A stretch of 46,739 nucleotides of DNA from positions 1 through 46,739 of the forward strand of contig NZ_CAJNOB010000008.1 in NCBI RefSeq assembly GCF_905250085.1, in the 5' to 3' direction. Origin of the DNA: Candidatus Methylacidithermus pantelleriae (GTDB taxonomy: Bacteria; Verrucomicrobiota; Verrucomicrobiia; Methylacidiphilales; Methylacidiphilaceae). Made by a program: the position numbers and the translations under genes. Shown piece after piece: positions 11,725-36,313 of this stretch. The notes under the pieces were generated by a model. It worked only from the letters and a program-made list of their open reading frames with translations. It was not told the DNA's origin and searched no databases. The first letter of the stretch is position 1. The number at the start of each line of letters is the position of its first letter.

Positions 11725-11932
11725 TGAACCCAGCCAATTACCTTCTGGCTTCCTGGACAGCCGGAGGAAAAGACTGCCTCGTCCTTGCAAGAAAGCATCA
11801 TCACCGGCTTCACGAAGACTCTCACACACCACGCATGAGCACGATTCAAGCACTAGCTTTTTAGACAGGCCCTTCTGCCCCAGGGTGACAAAACCTTTCC
11901 CCCATCCATTCCGAATTGGTGGGAACTACGAC

Positions 11933-18962: not shown

Positions 18963-20408
18963 TCAGCTCGTGTATCCGGCCGCATCGACCCTTAGCTGAT
19001 GAAATTCGGGCCGACCCAAGGTGGGCTGAAGCCCCAAGCTCGAACGTCGTCTTTGTAGTTGGCCATGGGCAACCTGACTCGCCGCAAGACAAAAACCTGC
19101 AAAAAGCCATACATACCCATGTACGCTCCCCTGTCCGGTTATTAATCCATAGAAAAGGTTAGGAGCAAGGAAACCCACAAGAATCATCGGCAACGGATTG
19201 CGCAGTTGACGTGCCGCCTTCTGCGCCCTCCAGCCTATGAACGCAAGAAGGCCACAACGGTAGGCGATATACAGCAGCCCAATTACCGGCCCTAATTCCG
19301 CAACATTCCGTGTCCAGCCTGCCTCCGCGTCGTAGGGTATTTGCCCCATACCCAATCTTAGTGCTGCATTCCCTGCAGAACCCAATCCGAATCCCAAAAA
19401 CGGAGTTTCATCCAAGACACGCCAAAACTGGCTCATATCGTACGCAATCCTGCGTACCATGAAAAATCCCCCTTCCGCTTCCGCCGCCCCAGTCCATCGC
19501 GTCACCATTGCATCAACCACCTCAGGAAAGACGTTCGTCACAAGGACCCAGCTGACTCCTCCGGCAAGAACGAGCAGCACAACAACATTAATGACCCGGC
19601 GGACATGATGAGGGGATCCAGTCCCCAAAACTGCAAAACCAAGCGTTATCAGCGCACCCAGGTAGGCCGACCTACTTCCGGAAACAAGGAGGTTGGTCAC
19701 CACCCCGACTGTGACAATCCAAAGGCTTCTCAGACTCATCGACCGATGGCAACGCGGTTGCATCCAGAAATAAAGCAAGAAAGCGACGCAACTTCCCACA
19801 AAGAGGCTCTGCCCCAGGGGGGCAGAAAAGGTTCCAGACGCGCGCACAATGTTTCCATATACTCCGAAGGCAACGAAAGCACTCTCGTCCTCTCCCATGC
19901 CGACATTGAGAGGGGAGCTGGCGGGAGCGTGGACTTGGAGCTGGCAAAGCAGCCCCATAGGAACGGAGAGATAGAGGGTCCGTCTAGCGATCTCCTCGAG
20001 CTCCTGTTTTCGTAGGACCCATTGGCAAACAAAAGCAAGCGGCAGGTAGAGAAAATAGTTCCGCCAGCCATAAGCAACCAACAAAGGCGATTGATCGAGG
20101 AACACGATCTGCAGAATGCCGATTCCAGCTCCCACAAGCGCTAGTGGAACCGCGAGCAGGAGCACTGGGGGGGGACGAGACCAAAATCCCATCCGTGCGG
20201 CCAAGAAATAAACAAGAAGAACCAGCGGATCCTTGAGAAAAAAAAGCGCCTTCTGCTGGCTGGGCAAGACCCACTTCCGAATCGCTCCCTCGAAGATGAG
20301 AAGCCAGTAGATCCAACTAATCAACCGGACGAGCAACAAGCGGTTACGCTCGGCTGCTGGAACCACAGGACCGCACCGAAGAGCTCTATGAAACGGAGAG
20401 GAGGTCAT
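18963..20408 (-). CDS. O-antigen polymerase/ligase-type membrane protein (Wzy-like)
   Basis: About 481 residues, highly hydrophobic with some ten or more membrane segments. Near the N-terminus it has WLLIFEGAIRKWVLPSQQ, close to the E-G-A-x-R-K-W-x-L-P motif common in a group of O-antigen ligase/polymerase-like proteins, and a large periplasmic loop followed by a GFGLGSAGNAA-type segment late in the chain. The inferred role is polymerising or ligating repeat units on the periplasmic side. The ATG at 20408 is preferred over a TTG at 20435; it overlaps the stop of the upstream glycosyltransferase gene by 23 bases, so the two genes are probably translated from one message. It is one of two polymerase-type proteins in the window. 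Confidence 0.85.
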   Translation of the reverse strand: MTSSPFHRALRCGPVVPAAERNRLLLVRLISWIYWLLIFEGAIRKWVLPSQQKALFFLKDPLVLLVYFLAARMGFWSRPPPVLLLAVPLALVGAGIGILQIVFLDQSPLLVAYGWRNYFLYLPLAFVCQWVLRKQELEEIARRTLYLSVPMGLLCQLQVHAPASSPLNVGMGEDESAFVAFGVYGNIVRASGTFSAPLGQSLFVGSCVAFLLYFWMQPRCHRSMSLRSLWIVTVGVVTNLLVSGSRSAYLGALITLGFAVLGTGSPHHVRRVINVVVLLVLAGGVSWVLVTNVFPEVVDAMVTRWTGAAEAEGGFFMVRRIAYDMSQFWRVLDETPFLGFGLGSAGNAALRLGMGQIPYDAEAGWTRNVAELGPVIGLLYIAYRCGLLAFIGWRAQKAARQLRNPLPMILVGFLAPNLFYGLITGQGSVHGYVWLFAGFCLAASQVAHGQLQRRRSSLGLQPTLGRPEFHQLRVDAAGYTS

Positions 20409-21420
20409 CGATGATTTGCAGGTAACGCTCCGCAATCACTCTACTCGTCAGGGGACGAAGGTGCGCGGGCGCATGCGCCAAAAGTTCCCGGAAGCGCTCT
20501 GGCTTCAAGACGAGTTCTTCAATCCTCGCCGCAAGCGCCCTCGCGTCTCCGTTTGGGAAGGTTAACCCACACGGACCGATGGCCGCTTTCAGGCCACCTC
20601 CTTCGGATCCAACTACTGCGCAGCCGCAGGCAATCCCCTCGACTGCAACGATTCCGAAGGGCTCCTGCCATATCGAAGGAACGACCAGTATCCGATGCTT
20701 TCGCATAAGCTGCGCCACTTCCTCACCCACCCGAAAACCTTCGAATTCCACCCAATCCTCCATCCCCAACTGGCGTACCCGTTCTTTCACCTCTGGCAAC
20801 ATCGGCCCATCGCCCACGAAAGTCGCACTAAGGTGGTGTCCTTTTTGCCGTAAAAGATCGAGAGCTTCGAGGAATAGAAGCGGCCCTTTCTCCTGGACCA
20901 TTCTCCCAACGAAGACGCAGTCTCGTGTCCGCTTTTCTTCCCCCGTGGTCCAAAAGATCTCCTCGTCGTAGGGGTTTGGCACAATCACGGAACTCACTGG
21001 CAAGTGTTGAGCAATCGCCTCGCTAATCGATACACAACAACCGACCCGCCGGAGAAGGCAACGAAAGGCTGCTCCCCGGACTGCCGAGAAGGAACACCAA
21101 GTTTGCACTGCCACCACAAAAGGCTTCCCAATCCCCAGAAGAGGCCAGCCAAGTCGCAAGCTGGGATGGTTTTGGAGGACGCATCGAGCGCTCGTTATTA
21201 AACGGACTACGGTGGCAGGAGACGGGCAACGAATTACAGGATAAGGGAAAGGCTCCTCCCCGTCGTATGGAGTTTCGGTAACGACGCTCACCAAGCGGCC
21301 GGCTTCCCGGAAACGCCGGGCCAGCATCTCCGTCACTGATTCGATCCCACCGATTCGCGGCCAAAAACTATAGCTCGTCAAGAGGATCTCGGTTTCCACA
21401 CCGCAAGGATCCCGACCCAT
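20386..21420 (-). CDS. Family 4 glycosyltransferase (GT-B)
   Basis: A 344-residue GT-B enzyme. The N-terminal glycine loop appears as PRIGGIESVTEMLARRF (21-37), the donor-domain entry as VFVGRMVQEKGPLLFLEAL (169-187), VGDGPM (202-207), and the retaining-family E-x7-E pair at E253/E261 in EPFGIVAVEGIACGCAVV. These are the features of Glycos_transf_1/GT4 enzymes that use nucleotide-sugar donors. The donor and acceptor cannot be told. The ATG is preceded by AAGG at seven bases. Its end overlaps the next gene (polymerase), and its start lies about 200 bases from the end of another GT4 gene. Confidence 0.93.
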   Translation of the reverse strand: MGRDPCGVETEILLTSYSFWPRIGGIESVTEMLARRFREAGRLVSVVTETPYDGEEPFPYPVIRCPSPATVVRLITSARCVLQNHPSLRLGWPLLGIGKPFVVAVQTWCSFSAVRGAAFRCLLRRVGCCVSISEAIAQHLPVSSVIVPNPYDEEIFWTTGEEKRTRDCVFVGRMVQEKGPLLFLEALDLLRQKGHHLSATFVGDGPMLPEVKERVRQLGMEDWVEFEGFRVGEEVAQLMRKHRILVVPSIWQEPFGIVAVEGIACGCAVVGSEGGGLKAAIGPCGLTFPNGDARALAARIEELVLKPERFRELLAHAPAHLRPLTSRVIAERYLQIIDDLLSVS

Positions 21421-21616: not shown

Positions 21617-22789
21617 CTAAGAGAATACCTGACTCCTTGCCTCATTGCTGCTCCCCACTCGTTTGTACCATTCGATTAGCCGCCGCGCGTACGCTTCCCA
21701 CGACATTTTTTCCCGGGCCTTTCTTGCGGCGTTTTCCCCCATCCACCGCCGCCGGTCGGGATCTCGATACAATTTTTCAATTGCCTCCCCGATTCTTTCA
21801 GGAGAACGAATGGGAACGACGAACCCATTTACACCAGGATCTACCATATCCGCGGCCCCGGTATTTTCCGTGACAATTACAGGCAACCCTGATGCCATTG
21901 CTTCGAGCACCGCTAGGGAAAAACCGTCTTCGATCGAAGCGAGGGCAAAAACGGATGCGCGGTTATAAACCTCATTCACCTGATCGAAACTGCACGATCC
22001 ACCGTGACGAAATTGCCCACGATACCTCTCCAAAACAGGCACCATCTCATGATCAACCGTCCCGAAAAAAAGAAGCTCTGCGTTCTTCAGTCCCAATATC
22101 TTCCAAGCCTCCAAAAGATCCACATGGCCTTTCCGCGGCGTTATCTGAGCCACACAGAGAACTCGAAAGCCGTTCGGGTCCCTTCCCGCCGGCCGAAATC
22201 TGCGCACATCGACCCCATAGGGGATAATCTCGATTCGCTCGGCAGGATACCCGCGCGAAACAAAGGAATTCCTGATCCAACGAGAAGCAACCAAAAGATA
22301 ACTGGTTCTTTCGACCTCCTCCAAAAGCCGACGATGCCATTCATGAAAATGGGATCTTTTCTTTAGCCCCAAGCGCTCATCTTCTTCCTCTAGCAGCTTC
22401 GCCACCTGCGCTGGATGAGCATTCACCGCTTCCCCAACCACCACTGCTCCCTCCTCGTGAGCACGCGTGATGGCCCTCTTCGCAGTGCCCATAAGCATAA
22501 AATGCCACAGGTCAGCTCTCTTCCACCGCCGCAAGACTCCTGTGTCCCACAAGCCCAGATAGTAAGGCACCAACTGTTCGTAACACCAATTGCCAAGAAA
22601 GTAACTGTGGGCACGCAAAAGATACTCCTTGAGCCACAGATTGACTTCGCTCTCACGCGCTTGAGGAAGGATCCTCTTGTCCACTCTGTGCGAATAGTAA
22701 AATCGCCCCAACAGTCCCCGTTCCGCCAGATGCCCAATGTAATTATGGTAATGAAAACGTCCGCACACAGCCACATTCACACGCAGCAC
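21617..22789 (-). CDS. Family 4 glycosyltransferase (GT-B)
   Basis: A 390-residue GT-B glycosyltransferase. Seen are IIPYGVDVRRFRP (188-200), VLCVAQITPRKGHVDLLEAW (210-229), and SIEDGFSLAVLEAMASGLPV (285-304), where an Asp (288) takes the place of the first Glu of the E-x7-E pair with the second Glu at 296, a variant known in GT4 enzymes. The end ENTGAADMVDPGVNGFVVP is the usual sugar-nucleotide loop region. The N-terminal 100 residues are less typical and probably bind the acceptor. It starts with GTG, well supported by GGAGGT seven bases before it. The substrates are unknown. Confidence 0.93.
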   Translation of the reverse strand: MLRVNVAVCGRFHYHNYIGHLAERGLLGRFYYSHRVDKRILPQARESEVNLWLKEYLLRAHSYFLGNWCYEQLVPYYLGLWDTGVLRRWKRADLWHFMLMGTAKRAITRAHEEGAVVVGEAVNAHPAQVAKLLEEEDERLGLKKRSHFHEWHRRLLEEVERTSYLLVASRWIRNSFVSRGYPAERIEIIPYGVDVRRFRPAGRDPNGFRVLCVAQITPRKGHVDLLEAWKILGLKNAELLFFGTVDHEMVPVLERYRGQFRHGGSCSFDQVNEVYNRASVFALASIEDGFSLAVLEAMASGLPVIVTENTGAADMVDPGVNGFVVPIRSPERIGEAIEKLYRDPDRRRWMGENAARKAREKMSWEAYARRLIEWYKRVGSSNEARSQVFS

Positions 22790-23475: not shown

Positions 23476-24411
23476 TTAAGAAGACTCGATCTTCTCAATT
23501 CCGAACTCGGCCGCCAAAACTCGTTCCCTTACCCAATCGATTTTTTCCTCAGCAATGATCAAACAATTAGCCCTCACTCGCCATGGCGCGTCCCTCCAAT
23601 CAAACTCCCCCCGCTCCGCATCAAATATCCCCATGCGGTATCCCTTACGTCGCAACCGGGCAGCCAATTCTTCCTCACTTACGCCAAATCGCCTACACTT
23701 CCCGTTAATCTCCACGATCCAAACCGGTGGATTCCGGTTCGATAAAAGCCTTTCCGCACCCTCGAGAGCGAGCGGTTCAGCTCCTTCGATATCTAATTTC
23801 GCCAGAGCATAGTCACCGTGAAGCGCGTCGTCTAACCGGACACATTCCACCTGGCAGGTATCATTCCTCTCCTTTGCGTCTTCGACCAACTCGCTAAGCG
23901 CATCTTTTCCACTCACAAACTGTCCAATTCCAGGCCGATTCGTGGCGGCCACTTCATGCACCCTTACCCAGAAAAAGCCGTTCAGTATAACATTATCCCG
24001 AAGGCGCTGTGCCGAACAACGGTCAGGTTCAAATGCCTCTATCTTTCCTCTCTGACCAACTCTCTTGGCAGCCAAGAGCGTCCAAAGTCCGACGTTGGCC
24101 CCGACATCAATGAACCCATCTCCCGGCCGCAGATATCGCAGCATAAAGACCATATCGTCAAACTCGGGTAACCCTCTACAATAAACAGCAAGACTTGACT
24201 GCACGCTGTTCCGATAACACCAGATCCGCACCCCACTCGGAAGGGTCACTACTTTGGGGCGGAGCGTCAGTCTTTTCTGAATCTGCCACATAGCCAAACG
24301 GCCCAATGCTCGCACCCTTCCCTCTTTATTCGCTGGATGAGTCCAAATAAACTGCAAAAGATGCAGGACGTCCTTACATCTTTTGTGCAACGCCACGCGT
24401 CCGAATGCCAT
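23476..24411 (-). CDS. FkbM-family methyltransferase (second of three)
   Basis: A 311-residue FkbM protein. Motif I is GFIDVGANVGLWTLLAAKR (99-117), followed by KIEAFEPDRCSAQRLRDNV, and the family block AKLDIEGAEPLALEGAERLL late in the chain. The N-terminal 95 residues, with VTLPSGVRIWCY, resemble the leader region of other FkbM proteins. It begins with ATG without a strong ribosome binding site. Its upstream neighbour is a decayed transposase, and the next active gene upstream is 1.6 kb away, so it probably has its own promoter. Inferred to methylate a sugar hydroxyl in the repeat unit. Confidence 0.93.
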   Translation of the reverse strand: MAFGRVALHKRCKDVLHLLQFIWTHPANKEGRVRALGRLAMWQIQKRLTLRPKVVTLPSGVRIWCYRNSVQSSLAVYCRGLPEFDDMVFMLRYLRPGDGFIDVGANVGLWTLLAAKRVGQRGKIEAFEPDRCSAQRLRDNVILNGFFWVRVHEVAATNRPGIGQFVSGKDALSELVEDAKERNDTCQVECVRLDDALHGDYALAKLDIEGAEPLALEGAERLLSNRNPPVWIVEINGKCRRFGVSEEELAARLRRKGYRMGIFDAERGEFDWRDAPWRVRANCLIIAEEKIDWVRERVLAAEFGIEKIESS

Positions 24412-26007: not shown

Positions 26008-27459
26008 TTATCCCAAAGTATTTTCCTTATTTGAATGAATCGCTCTTAAACAAGAGACACCACTGGCCGAAAAGGACCCGTTACTTACAAAATAATGATG
26101 AGATTTACCTTCTTTGAAGAAGCTCCATCCAGCACCCAAGAGAAGAGCAATATACAATTGGATCGCAGGAATTTGAAAAGGAAAGTCGAAAAAAGCATGG
26201 ATCGAAACCCCAAAGAGGGAGAGGATAATACCCCAACATACTTTTGAGCCTGACCGAAGGAACCTATGCACCCAGCCAACAAGCCCGCCCGCGTACCACA
26301 CAACCCAAACAATGAACCCCACCCACCCCCATTCAATAATCGTCTGAAGGTAATCCTCATGTGCTGTTTCCCAACGAAAGCCAGCCAGGCTACCAAGCCT
26401 TCCGAATTTGATTAACCCGAATACAGCTTCAAATGTTCCTGGTCCAAATCCCCAAAGGCCCGCCTTGCGAACAAGAAAAAGACAGGCTCTCCAAGCTGCT
26501 ACTCGGCCGGGATCCCAAAGAGACTGATGACGTTTCCAGGCTAAATCCCCGATTCCTGGGGAAACCAAAAGACCGATCCCAAGCACAAGGCCAAGGCTAG
26601 CCCCGTAAACAATCCATGAAAAGCCACGGCCAAGAATCAACCGCTCTCCGTGGCACTGACAAAGCCGGGCAATGATTGGGTAGAGCCCCCATCCCATCCA
26701 AAGCACTGCTGCAATGACAAGCGAACCCATCGACGCATTTACCAGAAGTCCGACAACCAAGATTAGCCAGGTGCAAGACCAGAAGGCGCGACCCAACCAC
26801 CCGCCCGGTTTTCCCAAGTGACGAAGAAGCTGGGCAAAGCAGGGGGGCCAAACCACGTTCAGAAATGCCCCCGCTGCACCGTGATAACGAAAAAAACCAA
26901 ACTCGGTTCCGATTTCGTTTCTCCTCCAGAGCCAAACAAGAAACGGATCCCGAAAAAGCCTGCCCCCTATCCCCACTAAACTCACAACACCCCCGACAAC
27001 TGCCATCCACAAAACCAGCCGTTCGCGCTCTTGATCCGGTAGAAACAAATCGCAACTTACAACGGACAGTCCCATGACAACTGTTACCCATCGCATCGTG
27101 TCGACCGACATCCCCGCATCAGCCGTCCCGGGGACCCAAGGACAAGCCTTGGCCACTGGAAGAATCACGTGAAGGTACGGCACGTACGTCCCCTCCGGAT
27201 TCGCGGCTATGGCCCAGCCCTGAAGAAGAAGAAACCCAGCACTCCCCCCAAGCAAAAAGGGAATCCTCGGAAGCCTTCCGGCCCAAAGATACTCCGCTAC
27301 CCTAACCAGGCAGGTCCCTGCACCCAACACAACAAGGATCGTTTTCCACGGTTCTCGTGTCGAACTGTAAAGACACGGACCTGCTACCATCGTCAGGAAA
27401 AGCAACCCCAAGGTAACTCTTGAATTCCTCACACCACAATTCCCCTTTTCCGCAAACAC
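26008..27459 (-). CDS. O-antigen ligase/polymerase family protein (Wzy_C)
   Basis: A 483-residue polytopic membrane protein with about ten to twelve hydrophobic segments. The Wzy_C/O-antigen ligase hallmark is visible late in the chain: GLWGFGPGTFEAVFG, followed about 20 residues on by TAHEDYLQTIIEWGWVGF, the conserved G-x-G-x-G-x-F and H-x-x-Y-L-x-x-x-x-E-x-G pattern of the periplasmic loop. It starts at a GTG with GAGGAG about eight bases upstream. Another GTG at 27432 with AGGGG is possible. It follows the epimerase gene by about 100 bases and is probably in the same operon. Whether it polymerises repeat units or ligates them to a lipid or protein cannot be told from sequence. Confidence 0.9.
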   Translation of the reverse strand: MFAEKGNCGVRNSRVTLGLLFLTMVAGPCLYSSTREPWKTILVVLGAGTCLVRVAEYLWAGRLPRIPFLLGGSAGFLLLQGWAIAANPEGTYVPYLHVILPVAKACPWVPGTADAGMSVDTMRWVTVVMGLSVVSCDLFLPDQERERLVLWMAVVGGVVSLVGIGGRLFRDPFLVWLWRRNEIGTEFGFFRYHGAAGAFLNVVWPPCFAQLLRHLGKPGGWLGRAFWSCTWLILVVGLLVNASMGSLVIAAVLWMGWGLYPIIARLCQCHGERLILGRGFSWIVYGASLGLVLGIGLLVSPGIGDLAWKRHQSLWDPGRVAAWRACLFLVRKAGLWGFGPGTFEAVFGLIKFGRLGSLAGFRWETAHEDYLQTIIEWGWVGFIVWVVWYAGGLVGWVHRFLRSGSKVCWGIILSLFGVSIHAFFDFPFQIPAIQLYIALLLGAGWSFFKEGKSHHYFVSNGSFSASGVSCLRAIHSNKENTLG

Positions 27460-27563: not shown

Positions 27564-28532
27564 CTACCGTGCCAACCCCCTCCGCGACAGCTCCGCGTAA
27601 ATCCACCGATACGTTTTCTCTAAGCCCACTTCCAAGCGCGTAGTTGGCTCCCAACCTAGCACTGCCCGTAAACGGCTATTATCGCTATTGCGTCCCCGAA
27701 CCCCCTGAGGTTTATCGGCCTCAAACACAAGTTTGACCTCCTTCCCGGAAATATCCGCAACCATTTTCGCAAGTTCCGCTATGCAAACCATTCGGTCGCT
27801 CCCGAGATTGATCGGCTCCTGCCATTGCGACCGCATAATCCTAACAATCCCCTCCACACAATCGTCCACATAAAGAAATGATCGGGTTTGTTTCCCATCC
27901 CCCCATACTTCCACAACACCCCTTGGTTCCGCCATGGCAACCTTCCGGCACAAGGCAGCCGGAGCCTTTTCCCGTCCCCCTTCGTAAGTACCTAATGGTC
28001 CAAAAACATTATGAAACCTTGCCACACGTATTTTTAACTCCGTCTCTTCTCCATAATATTGATAAAGCTTTTCTGAGAAAAGTTTTTCCCAACCATACCC
28101 TTCCTCCGGCTCAGCAGGATAGGCATCTTCCTCCTTCAACGGCCGAATGTCCTCCTCCCTCTGACGGTATGCCGGATACACACATGCTGAAGAGGAAAAA
28201 AATACCCTCTCCACACCATTGTGGAACGCCGCCTCCAAGACGTGAGCATTAATCAAAACATTGTTCCGCGCCACCTCCCTTCGGTAACGTGAAATGTACC
28301 CAATTCCTCCCATATCCGCCGCCAGCTGGTACACTTCCTCAATACCCTGGGTAACTTTCCTGCACACAGCCTCATCCCGCAGATCATTGATCCAAAATTC
28401 ATCCGCTTTGCTCGGCTCGAACTCCGGTCGTTTAAGATCTACACCCCGGACCCACTCCCCTCTTTCCTTTAAGTAGTTCACTAAGTGATGTCCAATGAAT
28501 CCACCGGCGCCTGCCACTAAGATCCGTCTCAT
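27564..28532 (-). CDS. gme: GDP-mannose 3,5-epimerase
   Basis: A 322-residue short-chain dehydrogenase/epimerase, matching GDP-mannose 3,5-epimerase along its length. The NAD-binding GxxGxxG is at 8-14, followed by AADMGGIGYI (71-80). SSACVYP (114-120) carries the catalytic Cys117, YGWEK (146-150) the Tyr/Lys pair, and GGREKAPAALCRK (185-197) the catalytic Lys189. GVRGRNSDN (277-285) is the GDP-binding block also seen in plant enzymes. The enzyme converts GDP-D-mannose into GDP-L-galactose (and GDP-L-gulose). In plants it serves ascorbate synthesis; a characterised bacterial enzyme is known from Methylacidiphilum. Here it most likely supplies L-galactose or L-gulose for the polysaccharide. 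Its ATG overlaps the stop of the WcaI-like gene (ATGA), and a GGAGGG lies five bases before it. Confidence 0.95.
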   Translation of the reverse strand: MRRILVAGAGGFIGHHLVNYLKERGEWVRGVDLKRPEFEPSKADEFWINDLRDEAVCRKVTQGIEEVYQLAADMGGIGYISRYRREVARNNVLINAHVLEAAFHNGVERVFFSSSACVYPAYRQREEDIRPLKEEDAYPAEPEEGYGWEKLFSEKLYQYYGEETELKIRVARFHNVFGPLGTYEGGREKAPAALCRKVAMAEPRGVVEVWGDGKQTRSFLYVDDCVEGIVRIMRSQWQEPINLGSDRMVCIAELAKMVADISGKEVKLVFEADKPQGVRGRNSDNSRLRAVLGWEPTTRLEVGLEKTYRWIYAELSRRGLAR

Positions 28533-29803
28533 GATTGCCCTCCCTTTTTACTAGCTCTCTTCCCAGTCTTCCGCCGTTTCCCCAGTCGTTCAATGGTATC
28601 GCAAAATGCTTCTAACATTTTCTCCTTCTCCCAGTGGGCGTAAGCATAGAGCGCACCATTCTTTCCCGCCTCTTCGACCATAGCTGCGTTTTGCCTCAGT
28701 TCCCTCACCTTTGAGACGAGCGTTTCGCCCCTTTCCGGCTCCACGACCCAACCGCCGCCCGATTCCCTTAGAACACGAGCCACCTCACTTTCATCATTGA
28801 CAGACGCAACAATCGGCTTCCCTGCACCCATAAGCACCCGTGTCTTGGACGGAAACACGAAATCTAATACCTCCCTGCGCTGGCAAATGAGACAGACATC
28901 AGCGGCTGATAAAAACTCATAAAATCGTCTTCGCGGCAAAACGGGGTAGAATCGCACGTTTGTCAAGCCAAGCGTTTGGGCTTTTCGTTCCAGCGCTCTT
29001 CGAGCGGCTCCATCCCCCACCAGAACCCAAAGGCTCGGGTCGATTTGTTCATCTTGCTGCGCCGCCGTTAAAACGACGTCCAGGCCCTGCTTAACACCCA
29101 TATTGCCCACATGCATTACAACAAATCGCCCGCCCCACCCTTCCTGCTTGCGAACCTGGAGTCCCCTTTCCCTAGAAACCGAACGACGAAGTTCCGGATC
29201 TAACCAATCCGAAAAAACTCCGAGCCGCTCCTCACTAATCCCTTTCCTCGCAATCCGGTCTTTCATCCCTTTACTCACACTCGACACAAGCGCCGCTTCT
29301 CGGTAGCACGCCAATGCAATCCTCTCCAAAACTTCTACGAACCTTCTTGAGCCGAGCATTCCCAGTTCTTTTGCCGTGTCTGGCTGAAGATCCGTCACGT
29401 GCAATACATATGGCACTCCCCACAGCCTGCTCAGACTTTTGGCTAGCATAGCCAGGATCAGCGGCGGGGAAATCACAAAAAGAAGATCTGGCCTTCCGGC
29501 TCCCAACATACCAAGCGCCGCCATGATCCCAAACGAAGTTTCATGCAAGATTCGTTTCACCGTTGTCGGATCTCCCGGAACATATAATGGCACGCGGAGG
29601 ATAGTAACTCCATTGCGCGATTCACGATAACATATTCCTGCTTTATACGGAGGTTGAATGCGCCAGTAAGGATAGTAGGGCGGGGCGGTCACTATGAACA
29701 CTTCATGCCCTCTCGCCGCAAGATATTCGCACTTTCCAACCGTATAGGGCGCAATTCCTGTTTCCTCCGGCCAGTAATTAATCCCAAGAAAAACGATCTT
29801 CAC
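28529..29803 (-). CDS. WcaI-like family 4 glycosyltransferase
   Basis: About 424 residues, close in plan to colanic-acid glycosyltransferase WcaI (about 407). The N-terminus reads VKIVFLGINYWPEETGIAPY, followed by GHEVFIVTAPPYYPYW and RVPLYVPGDPTTVKRILHE, all typical of this subgroup. VLHVTDLQPDTAKELGM and VVMHVGNMGVKQGLDVVLTA belong to the two Rossmann domains, and KTRVLMGAGKPIVASV is the donor-side C-terminal block. A longer frame with ATG at 29860 exists, but the GTG at 29803 has GGGAG eight bases upstream and gives the family's normal N-terminus. Its stop overlaps the start of the epimerase gene by four bases. The WcaI family transfers a sugar in an exopolysaccharide unit; which one here is not known. 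Confidence 0.92.
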   Translation of the reverse strand: MKIVFLGINYWPEETGIAPYTVGKCEYLAARGHEVFIVTAPPYYPYWRIQPPYKAGICYRESRNGVTILRVPLYVPGDPTTVKRILHETSFGIMAALGMLGAGRPDLLFVISPPLILAMLAKSLSRLWGVPYVLHVTDLQPDTAKELGMLGSRRFVEVLERIALACYREAALVSSVSKGMKDRIARKGISEERLGVFSDWLDPELRRSVSRERGLQVRKQEGWGGRFVVMHVGNMGVKQGLDVVLTAAQQDEQIDPSLWVLVGDGAARRALERKAQTLGLTNVRFYPVLPRRRFYEFLSAADVCLICQRREVLDFVFPSKTRVLMGAGKPIVASVNDESEVARVLRESGGGWVVEPERGETLVSKVRELRQNAAMVEEAGKNGALYAYAHWEKEKMLEAFCDTIERLGKRRKTGKRASKKGGQS

Positions 29804-29811
29804 CAGCCACG

Positions 29812-29816
29812 CTCCC
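29812..29816 (-). promoter_or_regulatory. Ribosome binding site deciding a GTG start
   Basis: GGGAG on the minus strand, eight bases before the GTG at 29803. It favours the 424-residue form of the WcaI-like glycosyltransferase over the longer frame from 29860. Confidence 0.55.
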
Positions 29817-29909
29817 ACCAGCGGCTCAGTGTACTTCTGGATCTTGTAACAAAAGCGCACAACCCGGGTCCCGCTTTGAAAACCTTCCTTCCCAAGGGTG
29901 TCGCACTAA

Positions 29910-30737
29910 TTAGGTTACCTGAAAAAAAAGCCGGTTCTGGAGAAAGTTTCCCGCGGGAAAGTGTGGTTCAGACACTCCCCACTCTGCATCGGCAAACCCA
30001 CTTTCAACAATTTTATGCCAAAGATACTTCGAACTCGTACCAGCCGCTACAAGACAACTTTCGTTAAACTCACAGATGACTGCTTTGATCCTCTTCTGAC
30101 GGATAAGTCTCTGGGCTCCCTCCCACGCTTGCTGCTCGCTTCCCTCAATATCCAGCTTTAAAAGGTGGATAACCTCAATCCCGCATTCCTCCGCGATGTC
30201 GTCCAGCGGCCGCACCGGGACTTTCGAAACAAACGTTTCGCCACGAAAAAAACTTGGAGCGTAATTGGTATCATCATCTAAAAACAAGCTAGCTTCGCCT
30301 CGCTTGCTACCTACGGCAACTGGGAGCGGATGGATCCATGATAGATCATTTTTGCTCACCCACTTCGACAGTTTCTCAAAAAGCGTAGGGGCAGGTTCGA
30401 TAGCAATGACCCGGCCTTGGCGACCCACCGTCTTAGCCGCAGCTAACGAAAAAAATCCCACGTGCGCTCCCACGTCCACAAAAGTGTCTCCAGGTCGTAA
30501 GATGGCCTTAAGCCAGCCCAACTCTTCGATCCCGTAGACACCATAGAAAATCCACCGCTGCACAAACTCACTAAGGTCAAGTTCTATCCATGAGCCAAAA
30601 ATTCTTTCGCAAACGATTCCACGCCTCCCGACCAGCCGGTCTAGCACGCGCACCTTCCCCCTGAATTGAAGACCACGGAGCCCTCGCACAATGGTTCTGG
30701 CCCAAACCGGGGGACTCTTATCCAGTACCTCCCGCAT
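29910..30737 (-). CDS. FkbM-family methyltransferase (third of three)
   Basis: About 275 residues. Motif I is TFVDVGAHVGFFSLAAAKTV (85-104), followed by VIAIEPAPTLFEKLSKWV, then LLKLDIEGSEQQAWEGAQRL near residue 200 and AVICEFNESC, the standard FkbM order. The frame extends to a TTG at 30785, but the ATG at 30737 has a perfect AGGAGG seven bases upstream. About 105 bases separate it from the WcaI-like gene, so it probably heads the operon that continues with WcaI-like, epimerase and polymerase. It likely O-methylates a sugar in the same repeat unit; this is inferred. Confidence 0.93.
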   Translation of the reverse strand: MREVLDKSPPVWARTIVRGLRGLQFRGKVRVLDRLVGRRGIVCERIFGSWIELDLSEFVQRWIFYGVYGIEELGWLKAILRPGDTFVDVGAHVGFFSLAAAKTVGRQGRVIAIEPAPTLFEKLSKWVSKNDLSWIHPLPVAVGSKRGEASLFLDDDTNYAPSFFRGETFVSKVPVRPLDDIAEECGIEVIHLLKLDIEGSEQQAWEGAQRLIRQKRIKAVICEFNESCLVAAGTSSKYLWHKIVESGFADAEWGVSEPHFPAGNFLQNRLFFQVT

Positions 30738-30744
30738 GCGACGG

Positions 30745-30750
30745 CCTCCT
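30745..30750 (-). promoter_or_regulatory. Ribosome binding site deciding a start
   Basis: A full AGGAGG on the minus strand, seven bases from the ATG at 30737. It settles the start of the FkbM gene and marks the 5' end of the 30.7-26.0 kb gene run. Confidence 0.7.
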
Positions 30751-32432
30751 AATCTGCCATACGAACCCAGGGCCTCCCCTCCCAATCACCCGCCTTCTCG
30801 CCTTGGTTGCGATCGTTCTTCACCCACTGCAACCGCTCATCGTGCCTCGTGGCACAACGAGTAGTTCCAATTCGACGGGCGGTTCTGGGCAGACGCAGGA
30901 AGAGAAGGATCAAAGACGGTAAGAAAAGGCTGGTCGAGCCTACTGCTACCAATAGAGGGAATGAGCCGTGAACTTGTCACCTTCGCTTAGGACAAGGTCA
31001 TTTCTTGGCAATACCTACACGGAAAAGGTGCGGGTAAACATTAGGAATGCGTTTCCACAAACGTTGGACCCTGTACGCAAAACAGGCACACTGGCACGGG
31101 TCCTCTATCTTGGAATCTTTCCTGATCCGGAAACTTCGAAAAACCTATGACAGGATACATCCCTACCGAAGACCCGTTCGCCTGTTTGGCTCACGCCGTA
31201 CGTAGAGACCGTCGGGCTTCCGTACCAGAAAGCGTCTCCAACAAGCTCAAACGCACCCTTGGCCTCTCAAAACCGGCAATCCTCGGGATCGAGTCCCCAG
31301 CCTGGCCTCCGTTCCAAGCGTTCCCACCTTATAGAAGAGCCAACCCCAAGTCGTCCCCCTTTGCACGACCTCGATGGGCTCCCCATCCGTGAACGACGGC
31401 TATCGACCAGCTTTGGCGCCCAACCGACGTAGCGGCCCGGGGACCACTTCGATGCGAGGTTGCCGCGTGTTCTATACTCCCCAGCACAAACACCCAGCCA
31501 AGCCGAACGTACGCAACCACTTGCTCGTCCAAGCACAGTCCACTAAACCATTGTAACTTTCTTCCCAAACTTCCGTTTTTCTTCCCCGCCTAAGGCAGCT
31601 CACAAACATCCTTCAGGCGCATGCCATCGTTGTGTCTCCTTCGTCGTGTCCCGGTTATTCCTCGGAACCACTCTCTGGCTTTTGCCCTCACCACCTTCTC
31701 GGACTCTCTTTCCTTCTCTCCTATCCCTTTGCGTTCGTCTTTTCTTTGGCCTTCCATCTAACTTCCACTTCGCATCCTCTTTACTTCTCCTCTAAGTCCG
31801 CTCGACACCCACCCCTCTTCAGGTAACCGTACAACACTTTCATCTCCTTTTCGTTTCCGCCACTGTTCTTTTCTCATGAGAGTTTCTTGTGATCTTTCGC
31901 CAAAAGCCTCTTCACTCATCGGGTAGGTCCATTCCCCTCTCTTGCTTGCATAGGTGTACATTGTAGTCGCATCTACACTCCCGTGTTATCTTCCTAAACC
32001 CCCATTTCCCACGCCAACTTCCTCAGTTCCCAAAAAAGACTTCCCATCCGCCTCCCACATATCCCTCCTCAACCGTCACATTGTCTTCATGATCTAGATG
32101 AGTCTTCTCGCAAAGAAACCACCATGCCACAGTATCGGTTTCGCGTCCCGGTGGCTCGAAACACCCCTGGATCCCCAGTAAGTGGCATACCAACAATATG
32201 ACGCAGGGTAGATCCTTAAGCGTCCCCTGCCCCCAGTACGTTTTCCCGAAACTTCCGAAAAGTCTGCCCCTCCCCACCTAAGCCCCAACGCACCCCATCA
32301 TCCTCCGCCACTGACCGGCGCAAAGCATTGCCAAAAGCGTCGGTCCCGCCCGACCAGGGCGCATAAATGATTATGACACCATCATCCCTCGATCAGTTTC
32401 ACAGAAAACATCCGACCGGCTTCCAACGTCTC
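30751..32432. other. 1.7 kb gene-free stretch
   Basis: No gene can be supported. Minus-strand pieces around 31568-31270 (e.g. DEQVVAYVRLGWVFVLGSIE) look protein-like but are broken and not recognised. The plus strand from about 31640 to 31850 is a strong polypyrimidine tract (about 50 pyrimidines of 60 in 31681-31740). It probably includes the promoter of the FkbM operon, but no convincing promoter elements could be assigned. Confidence 0.4.
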
Positions 32433-33410
32433 TCAGTATTGAAAAGACCCAAGACCCTTTTTACGTTCGCGCTGCGGCGTTTCCGAAGACACCTTTTTCG
32501 GCAAGCGTTCTTCCCCCTGGCTATACAACCCTTCGACCGACTTTGTCCTGCGAGCCCAAAGGGCAAAGCGGTTCACTAAACCCAGAGATTCTCCCACACG
32601 CTGTTCCCATTTCCCTGGCGTACTAAAGTACCGGTACATCTCCCACTCAAATCCGCTGCGTTCTAAGATTGTCACAATCTTCTCCTCATCGACCCCCCAC
32701 CGGACTCCATGGTACTCTACCCAATCCTCTGGTGTGTCACGAAAGATCCCACACTTCCGCCGCAACCACCGAAACGCTCCCCCCACCGGGTCCGGCTGAC
32801 TGACCCGCCACATCGCGTAGAGAAGGTCGTCCATTATCGTACTCGTCCAACCCAGCCTCGGACGCCACAAGGGGTCCTCAAAGGTTATGACTTGCCCTCC
32901 CTTCCCTACCAGACCGAGGAAGCTCTCTACGAGCAAAAGGTAATCTGGAACATGATGTAGAAAAGCACTGACTGCTACGACATCATACGTCTTTTGGAGC
33001 TCCTTCAGTCGCACAACCCACTCGCTTGCGTCTCCTTCGATCAGTGTTAACCTTTCCTGAAAGCGTTTGCACCTTTCTCCAAGTTGTTCCAATCGCCGTT
33101 GACTTATGTCAATAGCCGTCACCCGAGCGCCCCTTTCTAACCAGCTAAGCGTCATCGAACCCTCACCTGCACCAAGATCCAATAACTCCCAGTCGTTTCT
33201 TTTCTTTTCCGGCAGGTGAGCTTGGACCCTTTGCCACAACGCCAACCATACTCGCTTCGGACCCTCTTGGCGAATGTGAAACGCGCCTACAATATACCTC
33301 TCACGGTCCAGCCTCTCATAGGCCTCCCGGTTGGCTTTGGCTACTTTTTCGGCGACCTTCACGTTTTCTCTTTCTCCGCCCTTCTCGTAGCACTCACTCC
33401 TTTCTGTCAT
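32433..33410 (-). CDS. Class I SAM-dependent methyltransferase
   Basis: A 325-residue protein. Motif I is LLDLGAGEGSMTLSWLERG (76-94), VTAIDIS with acidic D101, LIEGDASEWV, and YDVVAVSAFLHHVPDYLLLV, the HHVPD segment typical of Methyltransf_11/25 enzymes. A C-terminal extension of about 125 residues (from PLWRPRLGW on) is longer than the basic fold and may hold the acceptor site. The ATG at 33410 has only a weak purine stretch before it. It follows the family-2 glycosyltransferase by 36 bases and closes the 36.3-32.4 kb gene run. Acceptor unknown. Confidence 0.88.
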   Translation of the reverse strand: MTERSECYEKGGERENVKVAEKVAKANREAYERLDRERYIVGAFHIRQEGPKRVWLALWQRVQAHLPEKKRNDWELLDLGAGEGSMTLSWLERGARVTAIDISQRRLEQLGERCKRFQERLTLIEGDASEWVVRLKELQKTYDVVAVSAFLHHVPDYLLLVESFLGLVGKGGQVITFEDPLWRPRLGWTSTIMDDLLYAMWRVSQPDPVGGAFRWLRRKCGIFRDTPEDWVEYHGVRWGVDEEKIVTILERSGFEWEMYRYFSTPGKWEQRVGESLGLVNRFALWARRTKSVEGLYSQGEERLPKKVSSETPQRERKKGLGSFQY

Positions 33411-33446: not shown

Positions 33447-34388
33447 TCAGCGCGATCCTATCTTCTCTTCGACAGCCGCAACGCTCAGTTCCTCTTTTCC
33501 CACTCTATCTCTCTGTACGTTCCCACCCAACGACCACTCATACAGTTTCCCATGCACAATCAAAATGTAAAAGGCGCGCAAAAGGCAAGCAAGGAGCCCA
33601 GCCTTGCCCTCCAGGATCCCTAATCGAAAAAGATAGTGGTAGACAAACCACCAAAGCGGTTCTCCTGGAAGCCGAATCGCCACAAGCTTCCAAAACCTCC
33701 GTACCTCTTGGCAATTCCCCATAACGTTCGGCTTGATTCGTTCCAGTCCGTACTGGCCCGATTGCCGGTATCGTTGCCTTACTTTGGCCTCCCATGCAGC
33801 GTACCGCAAATGTCGTTCTACATAAGCGTCCAATCCCTTCCAGTCATCATGAACCAAAGGGACCAAAAGCCTCCCCACCATCCCGTCCACCACCAGTCTC
33901 TCATGCACCTCTACATCCATCCCGCTCGGATCATCTTCAAGCAGCCTCTCGAATCGCGCCTTCCCTCTTCGAAAAAGAACCACCGCTTGAAAAGAAAAAC
34001 CACCAAACCGAAAACGCTTTCCTAAGAAGTGAAATTCTTTTTTCGCAGCAAACGCCACGTATCGCCCTGGGTACCGGACGCGGTACGAGATTTCTAGCCA
34101 TAGCTCATGAGTCACAATCTCGTCCGCATCTACCAGAAGAACCCAATCGGTCTTAATATCGCCGTGATCGAGAACCCACTGTCGCTTCTTTGGATATCCA
34201 CCTTGATAAACAAACGTCACCACCTCGGCACCCAGTCTTTGAGCTAACTCCGGGGTTCCATCCGTACTTTGCGAGTCAACAACAAGAACCCGCTGCGCAG
34301 GTTCGAGACTCCGCAAGCATTTTTCGATGTTCGCCGCCTCGTTTCGGGACGGCACAACCACCGTCACTGGCACACTTCTTTTCTCCAT
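33447..34388 (-). CDS. Family 2 glycosyltransferase (WaaE/KdtX-like)
   Basis: A 313-residue GT-A enzyme. It begins with VTVVVPSRNEAANIEKCLRS (8-27), then VLVVDSQSTDGTPELAQRLG (34-53), GGYPKKRQWVLDH (63-75) and DWVLLVDADEIV (81-92), where DADE is the metal/nucleotide site. The N-E-x-x-N-I, DS.STDGT and KR.W.L series is typical of the WaaE-like glucosyltransferase subgroup acting on lipopolysaccharide cores and related glycans. A weakly hydrophobic C-terminal segment could touch the membrane. It lies 18 bases after the acetyltransferase gene, consistent with one operon. Donor sugar unknown. Confidence 0.92.
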   Translation of the reverse strand: MEKRSVPVTVVVPSRNEAANIEKCLRSLEPAQRVLVVDSQSTDGTPELAQRLGAEVVTFVYQGGYPKKRQWVLDHGDIKTDWVLLVDADEIVTHELWLEISYRVRYPGRYVAFAAKKEFHFLGKRFRFGGFSFQAVVLFRRGKARFERLLEDDPSGMDVEVHERLVVDGMVGRLLVPLVHDDWKGLDAYVERHLRYAAWEAKVRQRYRQSGQYGLERIKPNVMGNCQEVRRFWKLVAIRLPGEPLWWFVYHYLFRLGILEGKAGLLACLLRAFYILIVHGKLYEWSLGGNVQRDRVGKEELSVAAVEEKIGSR

Positions 34389-34406: not shown

Positions 34407-34982
34407 CTAGGCGATAACCCTAACTCTCTTCTTAGCTGGACGCGCAGGGACACCCACATACACTGTCCAGGGATCCAGGTGTTTCGTAGCAACGGATCCC
34501 AAACCTAGCACCGCTCCTTCTCCCACCTTAACTCCTGGTAAAATGCATGCCTTGGCGCAAATCCACGAGTAGGCACCCAGCTCGACCGGAGCCGTCACAA
34601 TCGGAAAATCTTTTCTATTATAATCATGCGAAGCAGTGCAAACGTATGCGTACTCGGAAATGATGGCATGGCTTCTCACAATCACCCAATCTGCATTATA
34701 AATCACGGCTTCGTCTCCTATGCACGAAACCTCCTCACAGATCAGTCGCCAAGGCGCCCAAATTTTCGCCCTTGGATAAATCCTCGCGCTCGGCGCAACC
34801 TTCGCCCCAAAAATGCGCAGTAAGAACCTCCGCCAACCGTGTGATATCCGAGGCGACGTCTGAAAAAACAAAGCGTATACGATACCCCAAGCTAGACGCG
34901 TTGCCCGATGCCAGAAAGGGTAGTATGCTTCTAGGTATGGATCCCAACATCGGTGGGAGTTAACCAAATCGGCTTCACTCAC
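34407..34982 (-). CDS. WcaF-like acetyltransferase (left-handed beta-helix)
   Basis: About 191 residues, near the size of colanic-acid acetyltransferase WcaF (182). The order of features fits: an N-terminal amphipathic part with FQTSPRISHGWRRFLLRIFG, then hexapeptide repeats (IYPRAKIWAPWRLICEEVSC, IGDEAVIYNADWVIV, SHAIISEYAYVCTASHDY, GAYSWICAKACILPGVKVGE) and the closing AVLGLGSVATK...VYVGVPARPAK. The SHDYN segment holds the catalytic His region of the family. A GTG at 34982 overlaps the stop of the upstream glycosyltransferase as GTGA; a GTG at 35006 is the alternative. It probably O-acetylates a sugar, using acetyl-CoA. Confidence 0.9.
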   Translation of the reverse strand: MSEADLVNSHRCWDPYLEAYYPFWHRATRLAWGIVYALFFQTSPRISHGWRRFLLRIFGAKVAPSARIYPRAKIWAPWRLICEEVSCIGDEAVIYNADWVIVRSHAIISEYAYVCTASHDYNRKDFPIVTAPVELGAYSWICAKACILPGVKVGEGAVLGLGSVATKHLDPWTVYVGVPARPAKKRVRVIA

Positions 34983-36313
34983 GTTCTCACAACCACTGTT
35001 GGGCACAACGTCTTACCATTGGATTTCCCATTCCCCGTAAGCCCGCGAACGATTCCAAGGAGAAACTCAGCTGCCCGCCTAATCCAGAAACGATTTTCGA
35101 AGCACCTCCTGGCCTTTTCCGCATATTGGACTCGTTTCACCTGAGGAATTTGGATCCACGCTTGCAGCGAACCAGTAAGAGACCGCAACTCGTCGTCGCA
35201 CACCATCCCTGCGCCATCGCTTTCGATTTCTCTCCAAATGTTGATGCTTTTTGTGATGAGTACCGGCACGCCGCAGGCAAGAGCCTCGGCTACGACGCGG
35301 CCAAAGTTTTCTTGATGGGAAGGAAGAACGAGAAGCTCACTCGCACGGATCGCCCGCCACTTCCATTCTCCATACAACGGTCCTGCCCACACGATTCTGT
35401 CCCCAACTCGCTTGTCTTTGGCAAAACGTTCGAGGAAATTTCGCCAGCCTCCTTCATCGGGACCAACGAAAAGAAGCCAAACATTGGGATCAAGATGTCG
35501 AACTTGGGAAAAAGCTTCGATCAAAAGATCGCAACCCTTCTTTGGGTGAATCCTACCCAGAAATAACCAAATTTTTTTCTCCTTGAGGTTCGGAAATTTT
35601 TGAGCGAATGCTGCAGCGTCGCCTGCTTTTGCTGGGCCAGGGTCGGGTACGCCATAGGGAATCACAAGATCCCTCCAACCATTATATCCAAAAGACTCGC
35701 GGCCCAGTCTGCGCTCCTCTTCACACGTAAAAAGCACCCCGGAGGCTTCCCGAAGGATTCTCGCCTCGAAAAGATGCCAGTAAACCCATTTTTTCAAATG
35801 TTTGGCCGGATACGCCTTCCGAAACCAAGGGTCAAGCATGCCATGAGGATAGACAAAATATGGAACGCGCTTCCGCAGACCTAGCCAAGTACCCAGCATC
35901 CAATAGCCCCACAGACCGTGGATGAAAACAGCGTCATAGTTTGGTGCCTTTGCCCTTACCCATGACACTAAATTCCCTGTATACCGATACTTTCCTAGAG
36001 CAGGCCCAAGCTGATAAACGGTCAACCCAGCCCCCGTGCCCCAATCAGCCCCTGGGCGATCCAGTGTTAGGATCTCCGCGTCCACGCCGAGAGAGCGAAA
36101 CTCTCGTGCCATGGCCACGCACGCCTCCGGAGGGCCTCCTCCCGAGGGGTCCAGTGACCCAATAACAGAAAGAATCCTTGGAAACCTCAACTCACCATCT
36201 CTCTCAGCATGCCGATGAGGGCCTTTTTCTGTTCCCGACAAGAGCCCGTGCCGCAGCCCCAGTAGGTCTGTTACCTCGGAATCATCCAGGACACAGGTTC
36301 CTTTAATGCCCAA
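34979..36313 (-). CDS. Family 4 glycosyltransferase (GT-B)
   Basis: A GT-B glycosyltransferase of about 400-444 residues. The glycine loop is SLDPSGGGPPEACVAMAREF, followed by FIHGLWGYWMLGTWLGLRKR and YFVYPHGMLDPWFRKAYPAK, typical of the subgroup with an H-G-L-W and P-H-G-M-L motif. The donor domain has IWLFLGRIHPKKGCDLLIEA and the E-x7-E pair in HQENFGRVVAEALACGVPVL. The frame starts at a TTG (36313), but the first 41 residues are not part of the fold and a TTG at 36190 just before RFPRILSVIGS may be the real start; neither is well supported. Its stop overlaps the acetyltransferase start by four bases, so the two are translationally coupled. Confidence 0.9.
   Translation of the reverse strand: MGIKGTCVLDDSEVTDLLGLRHGLLSGTEKGPHRHAERDGELRFPRILSVIGSLDPSGGGPPEACVAMAREFRSLGVDAEILTLDRPGADWGTGAGLTVYQLGPALGKYRYTGNLVSWVRAKAPNYDAVFIHGLWGYWMLGTWLGLRKRVPYFVYPHGMLDPWFRKAYPAKHLKKWVYWHLFEARILREASGVLFTCEEERRLGRESFGYNGWRDLVIPYGVPDPGPAKAGDAAAFAQKFPNLKEKKIWLFLGRIHPKKGCDLLIEAFSQVRHLDPNVWLLFVGPDEGGWRNFLERFAKDKRVGDRIVWAGPLYGEWKWRAIRASELLVLPSHQENFGRVVAEALACGVPVLITKSINIWREIESDGAGMVCDDELRSLTGSLQAWIQIPQVKRVQYAEKARRCFENRFWIRRAAEFLLGIVRGLTGNGKSNGKTLCPTVVVRT

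Follow-up and report, generated by a model that had tools for sequence, protein, structure and literature searches.

What sugar nucleotide is made at the centre of a polysaccharide gene cluster on contig NZ_CAJNOB010000008.1 of Candidatus Methylacidithermus pantelleriae, and into which glycan does that sugar go? The window, which is the whole stretch of 46,739 nucleotides that was analysed, is a complete contig (G000:C8) of a 2.46 Mb genome (2,459,655 bases, 71 contigs) that also carries an AMO/pMMO family gene (PF02461, 316.5 bits). The gene in question encodes a predicted GDP-mannose 3,5-epimerase (GME), a family that converts GDP-mannose to GDP-L-galactose and is best known from plant vitamin C synthesis. 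It overlaps the gene of a WcaI-family glycosyltransferase (GT), and the explanation that we favour, as probable though well short of certain, is that GME makes GDP-L-galactose and that the coupled GT puts L-galactose into a surface glycan.

The first-pass annotation of the window had placed a GME gene at 27564..28532, and both the exact coordinates and the family were borne out. In the window's list of open reading frames (ORFs) this frame lies on the minus strand, starts with ATG and encodes 322 amino acids (protein P0001); the plus strand over the same interval is interrupted by stops. A phmmer search of the PDB sequences with P0001 returned plant GMEs as the top five distinct sequences, from 2c59 (E value of 2.7e-95) to Myrciaria 8sg0 (9.4e-94), and the next family, GDP-L-fucose synthase, followed at 2.3e-31. 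The similarity to 2c59 is far beyond chance. An AlphaFold2 (AF2) model of P0001, built from 30 aligned sequences, had a mean pLDDT of 89.9, and in a fold search with this model the best 14 PDB rows were all plant GMEs (TMq 0.87-0.94), with GalE-type enzymes next. Identity was 46.5% to Arabidopsis GME (312 columns) and 29.1% to E. coli Fcl (306 columns).

The four catalytic residues listed in the first-pass annotation, Cys117, Tyr146, Lys150 and Lys189, were correctly positioned; they align with Arabidopsis C145, Y174, K178 and K217 and, together with S115, N175, R217 and R281, correspond to the plant GME active site. P0001 has the marks of the extended short-chain dehydrogenase/reductase (SDR) fold, with GxxGxxG at G8, G11 and G14 and [ST]xnYx3K provided by S115, Y146 and K150. 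The Cys/Lys acid-base pair (C145/K217 in Arabidopsis) is represented by C117/K189, and R281, R217 and N175 match Arabidopsis R306 (Cys-acidifying), R243 (diphosphate) and Asn203. The C, Y, K, N, K, R and R sites were invariant across 99/99 bacterial rows, the window row included; the Ser115-equivalent site was Ser in 97 and Thr in 2 of them. These residue counts omit L092 (a duplicate of the L019 record), L113 (which is the gene of the window itself), L002, L109 and L115 (a paralogue); L002 was used solely as a non-GME comparison row, and L051 and L101, one record with an identical protein, were both counted in the 99 rows and in the 99 loci considered below. The donor-making step is well supported by homology, and GDP-mannose 3,5-epimerase activity, taken for P0001 alone, is predicted with high confidence.

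Translational coupling to a WcaI-like GT, which had been claimed earlier, was also evident. The GT gene (28529..29860, minus strand) encodes a GT4 enzyme, a predicted L-galactosyltransferase, whose stop codon shares the ATGA at 28532-28529 of the minus strand with the GME start; the sequence GGGAGGG stands five bases ahead of the GME ATG. The protein passed the curated cut-off of NF007640, 'WcaI family glycosyltransferase' (326.2 vs 276 bits), but was well under that of TIGR04007, the colanic acid WcaI equivalog (215.4 bits vs 800.45). By these profile scores it is a member of the WcaI family but not the colanic acid enzyme itself. E. coli WcaI, which is annotated as a fucosyltransferase, was 32% identical to it.

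The first-pass annotation had further supposed that the usual deoxysugar route is lacking, and the genome searches agreed. No GDP-mannose 4,6-dehydratase (Gmd) over the cut-off was found in the own genome (best 69.8 vs 415 bits), and the best GDP-fucose synthase (Fcl) score there, about 149 (148.6) of 500 bits, belonged to the GME gene itself. Gmd exceeded its cut-off in 0/13 genomes of the family Methylacidiphilaceae (best approximately 70 of 415 bits) and in 23/27 other genomes of the order. The best Fcl score in the family was 154 bits, the top match being GME itself in each of the 12 genomes with that gene, and 22 of the 27 other order genomes scored 422-503 bits. Since the 500-bit cut-off of the Fcl model was passed in just 1/40 genomes, the absence of Fcl rests on this score gap and not on the cut-off. 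As far as these models can tell, GDP-L-fucose is without a recognised route in the family and GDP-L-galactose has one. A mannose-1-phosphate guanylyltransferase-like gene on contig C46 scored 262.5 bits against the GMP portion of TIGR01479, below the cut-off of 372.95 that this two-domain model carries. Mouse and Arabidopsis fucosyltransferases accept GDP-L-galactose, according to the available part of PMC8787198. The lack of a recognised GDP-fucose route, the fucosyltransferase annotation of WcaI and this donor tolerance together led to the prediction that this WcaI branch transfers L-galactose.

GME was present in 12/13 family genomes (the own genome and G001-G012); G006 was the only one without GME at 1e-60, and it also had no Gmd over the cut-off. 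In 11 of the 12 genomes with GME (the window and L088-L097) the GT gene lay next to it, and in L094 it was cut by the contig end. As separate observations, the WcaI-type GT of two loci of genus g2, L088 (G005) and L090 (G007), was split over two frames, which may be due to a frameshift, to gene decay or to an error in the sequence, and the GT-GME pair of L154 (G004, genus g3) stood amid transposase-like ORFs, including two TnpB-like copies judged near-identical by eye.

To measure the linkage more widely, 99 GME-encoding loci (L008-L106, the window not among them) were used, and the 93 GT4-like segments in 56 of these loci were sorted according to whether their best score was to one of two WcaI queries or to one of six further GT4 queries; a segment was called adjacent if it shared the strand of GME and lay no more than 450 bases from it. 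WcaI-class segments adjoined GME in 31/35 cases vs 5/58 for other GT4 segments. A WcaI-type GT thus stood beside GME in 31/99 sampled loci, or 30/98 without L092; the whole-sample counts include both L019 and L092, which are one record. With E. coli WcaI as the sole WcaI query the result was again 31/35 vs 5/58, so that the linkage did not depend on the choice of the window's own neighbour as a query. Because the flanks of L088-L106 were only 1.5 kb, which biases toward adjacency, these loci were also left out; the counts for L008-L087 were 21/23 vs 5/57, and 10/12 vs 3/37 in those loci of at least 15 kb. The four WcaI-class segments not counted as adjacent were the far halves of the frame-split GTs (L088, L090), one on the opposite strand beside GME (L045) and one 8.9 kb away (L044). 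In an alignment (A2) of the window's GT and 24 others beside GME, 25/25 matched NF007640 at an E value of 1e-5 or better, not necessarily over its cut-off. Ten of the 31 linked loci came from the window's family (L088-L097), and the other 21 from Verrucomicrobiota, Chloroflexota, Pseudomonadota, Actinomycetota, Acidobacteriota and Planctomycetota, with one unclassified (L030). A literature search over titles and abstract openings, with most subscription papers outside its scope, returned no report of a WcaI-type GT paired with GME and, in the same scope, no bacterial enzyme that transfers L-galactose from its GDP form, antibiotic pathways such as A201A apart.

Homology, residue conservation, fold, the ATGA overlap, the cross-phylum GME-WcaI linkage and the lack of a recognised GDP-fucose route were all observed; the epimerase activity, the product ratio, the GT donor and the glycan are the parts of the explanation that we infer. 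In this explanation Tyr146 and Lys150, with bound NAD+, would oxidise GDP-D-mannose at C4, and Cys117 and Lys189 would serve as the acid-base pair for inversion at C5 and C3. Re-reduction of the C4 ketone would yield mainly GDP-L-galactose, with some GDP-L-gulose and GDP-D-altrose, and the coupled WcaI-family GT would move the L-galactosyl residue onto a surface glycan of the exopolysaccharide or O-antigen type. The GME-GT pair would take the place of gmd-fcl-wcaI of colanic acid, and L-galactose (6-hydroxy L-fucose) would appear instead of L-fucose. By analogy with the relative from Methylacidiphilum, which makes chiefly L-galactose, this sugar is likelier than L-gulose in the polymer.

Several observations weigh against this explanation. 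Within the own family, L098 has GME without an adjacent GT. In six loci of the two sister genera (L019 and L154-L158, approximately 10 kb on each side of the pair), only GT and GME matched at 1e-10 of the 24 window proteins tried, which indicates that the two genes form a unit that can exist outside this cluster. The window contains no protein with PF02397 (initiating transferase) or PF02563 (export); elsewhere in the genome PF02397 was found on C49, and PF02563 on C49 and C28. Across the sample, 68/99 GME loci were without an adjacent WcaI-class GT as counted, 43/99 were without any GT4 segment, and the WcaI-class assignment was weak (40-60 bits) in five loci. When a 90-bit WcaI threshold was applied to L008-L087 the counts became 10/11 vs 16/69, and 4/5 vs 9/44 (p = 0.014) in loci of at least 15 kb. 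The Fisher values of approximately 1e-12 to 1e-15 for the main linkage counts are a guide only and not independent-event probabilities, since the loci are related to one another. WcaI relatives from elsewhere in the phylum (L125-L133, L135, L136 and L138-L148) had no GME, Fcl or Gmd at 1e-8 in 22/22 loci, within flanks of at most 1.5 kb, which leaves the donor unfixed for the GT family at large. Finally, 10 genomes of the order outside the family have GME and 7/10 (G014, G016, G022, G023, G027, G036 and G039) also have Gmd over the cut-off, which means that having GME does not as a rule go with dispensing with the fucose route.

Could P0001 be misnamed, and in truth be a GDP-L-fucose synthase, a UDP-glucose 4-epimerase or a 4,6-dehydratase? 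All of these share the SDR superfamily with it, no GME model stood among the 25 listed of its 27 NCBIfam matches, and the first-ranked of them was GDP-fucose synthase (NF047922). That match reached only 149.5 bits, however, against a cut-off of 500, and there is no Gmd over the cut-off to supply the substrate of Fcl. The eight active-site residues that P0001 keeps are those given as diagnostic of GME in the available text of PMC8787198, and the base and the Cys-acidifying residue are named there as what discriminates GME from GDP-fucose synthase: in E. coli Fcl the sites of Arabidopsis Lys217 and Arg306 are occupied by His179 and Lys283, and P0001 has Lys189 and Arg281 in place of this His and Lys, by which it is told apart from the GDP-L-fucose synthases (GMER/Fcl). 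The comparison with other epimerases by tree was run in part; as the trees held at most one outside sequence, E. coli Fcl, the separation of the families rests on the sequence scores, the diagnostic residues and the fold. A misnaming is accordingly hardly credible. A plant-like route to vitamin C (L-ascorbate) would agree with the placement of P0001 in the plant GME family, but the glycan-synthesis setting and the overlap with a GT make it only marginally less far-fetched.

Two further alternatives accept the enzyme and differ in the sugar or its destination. Besides its main product the enzyme yields GDP-L-gulose (the form proposed for BlmG) and GDP-D-altrose, and the cell might use one of these, with the GT transferring that sugar; this we consider unlikely, given that the Methylacidiphilum enzyme makes mostly L-galactose (80:15:5, with the L-gulose and D-altrose forms as by-products; PMC6678494, available in part) and that P0001 keeps all of the residues for both epimerisations. 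The L-galactose might instead enter a lipopolysaccharide or other glycolipid, the surrounding exopolysaccharide cluster being incidental. This possibility, which is compatible with the favoured explanation, deserves serious weight although we lean against it: lipopolysaccharide was proposed for M. fumariolicum in the accessible part of Gevaert et al. (PMC6678494), and the six sister-genus loci share nothing but the pair with the window, while here the pair has genes for Wzy-like proteins, GT4 enzymes and methyltransferases around it, on a single strand.

If L-galactose is indeed what the coupled GT transfers, a broader proposal can be made, which we put forward tentatively and as somewhat doubtful: that GME and a WcaI-family GT form a portable two-gene module for L-galactosylation in several phyla; that the module stands alone in Methylacidiphilaceae, without a recognised GDP-L-fucose route; that L-galactose there replaces, in surface glycans, the L-fucose of relatives; and that the transferases of this WcaI branch are specialised for GDP-L-galactose.

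The setting of the pair also matched the polysaccharide locus described earlier, with GME in a cluster on one strand of GT4 and GT2 transferases, FkbM-type and other methyltransferases, a WcaF-like acetyltransferase and two Wzy-like membrane proteins; the last three labels all rest on scores under the curated cut-offs for those names. Directly after GME, a membrane protein resembling O-antigen ligases and polymerases (Wzy_C) is encoded at 26008..27459 (PF04932, 29.0 bits, E value of 1e-6, just missing the cut-off of 31.7), and upstream of the WcaI-family GT lies an FkbM-type methyltransferase gene (29910..30785; PF05050, 70.3 bits). Further along, the minus strand encodes a second Wzy-like protein (18963..20435; PF04932, 22.0 bits, under the cut-off, with a weak HpsL match of 41.1 bits vs a cut-off of 640), GT4 transferases at 20386..21420 (PF13692/PF00534) and 21617..22789 (PF00534, 106 bits), and another FkbM-type methyltransferase (23476..24411; PF05050, 53.1 bits). 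On the other side, also on the minus strand, are an S-adenosylmethionine (SAM) methyltransferase (32433..33410; PF08241), a GT2 transferase (33447..34388; PF00535), the WcaF-like hexapeptide acetyltransferase (34407..35006; NF007797, 166.4 bits, under the cut-off of 192), an HpsP-like GT4 transferase (34979..36313; NF038295, 160 bits, under the cut-off of 550) and two more GT4 transferases (38598..40076, PF00534; 41138..42346, PF00534, 119.8 bits).

Other parts of the window were noted in passing. The approximately 1.65 kb between the FkbM and SAM methyltransferase genes (30786-32432) had no ORF of at least 100 amino acids and looks decayed or non-coding, and 42923-44942 held short ORFs only, of up to 148 amino acids. 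A 1,394-amino-acid protein in the cluster (7669-11853, minus strand) has CBM9-like, FlgD Ig-like and NHL pieces and is perhaps surface-located or polysaccharide-binding. A 448-amino-acid protein (44943-46289, minus strand) had no Pfam or NCBIfam match at 0.001; by eye it resembles an outer-membrane beta-barrel, perhaps for polysaccharide export. Two short direct-repeat families of 25 nt were found in the window and no inverted pairs.

That few bacterial members of the GME family are described, as the first-pass annotation put it, held for characterised enzymes only, because homologues are widespread. When genome contigs were scanned once with a pattern, 101 related stretches came up, the best 80 of which were kept (all with E values of 1e-94 or better), and a homologue at 1e-60 or better was present in 22/40 genomes searched, the own genome included; on these sequence matches GME homologues are common in bacteria. 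In a cyanophage, GME adjoins Gmd and Fcl by ORF number (available text of PMC9602691). Three genomes of genus g12 in the same order (G021, G031 and G034) have GME with no Gmd over the cut-off and no strong Fcl match, and may be a second group that uses L-galactose without fucose.

Replacement of GME by gene transfer within the family was considered and dropped. In a quick GME tree, with E. coli Fcl as at most the single outside sequence, the GMEs of the three family genera were scattered, whereas the family GTs of sufficient length formed one clade (8 rows, support 100/99) in a GT tree that left out repeats and any GT with a match shorter than 330 residues (L088, L090, L094 and others); this combination had first suggested replacement in place. 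A more careful GME tree held 72 of the 101 rows, with a second clade thinned by hand and without Fcl. The approximately unbiased (AU) test did not reject a single family GME clade (constrained tree better by 9.14 log-likelihood units, p = 0.607), and the tree program warned of long branches joining, namely Arabidopsis GME and the genus-g3 rows. For the latter reason, nothing was concluded about the origin of plant GME from its placement beside genus g3.

L-galactose is seldom considered in bacterial surface glycans, and reports of galactose often omit its absolute configuration. If the explanation is correct, the GME-WcaI pair would be a simple genomic marker for L-galactose glycans, the GT would be a candidate L-galactosyltransferase of use in glycan synthesis, and the use of a fucosyltransferase-type enzyme by an acidophilic methanotroph family without a recognised GDP-fucose route would be explained. 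The new element is the conserved WcaI pairing in such a family, which points to L-galactose in bacterial surface sugars.

The kind of enzyme is already known from the sister genus Methylacidiphilum, and P0001 is a further example of it. MfGM35E of Methylacidiphilum fumariolicum SolV (UniProt I0K0X9) is a bacterial GME assayed in 2019 by Gevaert et al. (PMC6678494), presumably from the same bacterial family, and in the available portion of that paper a GT adjoins its gene as well. The GMEs of genus g2, which holds Methylacidiphilum, served as a proxy and were 62-64% identical to P0001; between the Methylacidiphilum sp. Yel enzyme and Arabidopsis GME the identity is 50.6%, close to the value of 50.5% given for MfGM35E (PMC6678494). 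The locus studied here differs in that GME overlaps the GT gene by ATGA within a large polysaccharide cluster, and in the available text of PMC6678494 the GT is not called WcaI-type and the pairing is not traced. Arabidopsis thaliana GME (2c54, 2c59, 2c5a and 2c5e) shares all catalytic residues and the fold (TMq 0.93-0.94), but at the third glycine position of the NAD motif it has Ala, where P0001 has Gly14, and its role lies in ascorbate and the cell wall. BlmG (bleomycin) and the L-galactose step of A201A are likewise bacterial GME or GME-like steps to GDP-L-sugars (PMC6678494, in part), likened here by description and not by sequence, but they belong to antibiotic pathways and not to surface glycans; by analogy, A201A synthesis must presumably include a transfer of L-galactose. 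The gmd-fcl-gmm-wcaI block of E. coli colanic acid is similar in placing a GT of the WcaI family close to an SDR-superfamily enzyme that makes a GDP-L-sugar, whereas here one enzyme, with no 4,6-dehydratase, would lead to a 6-hydroxy sugar and not to fucose.
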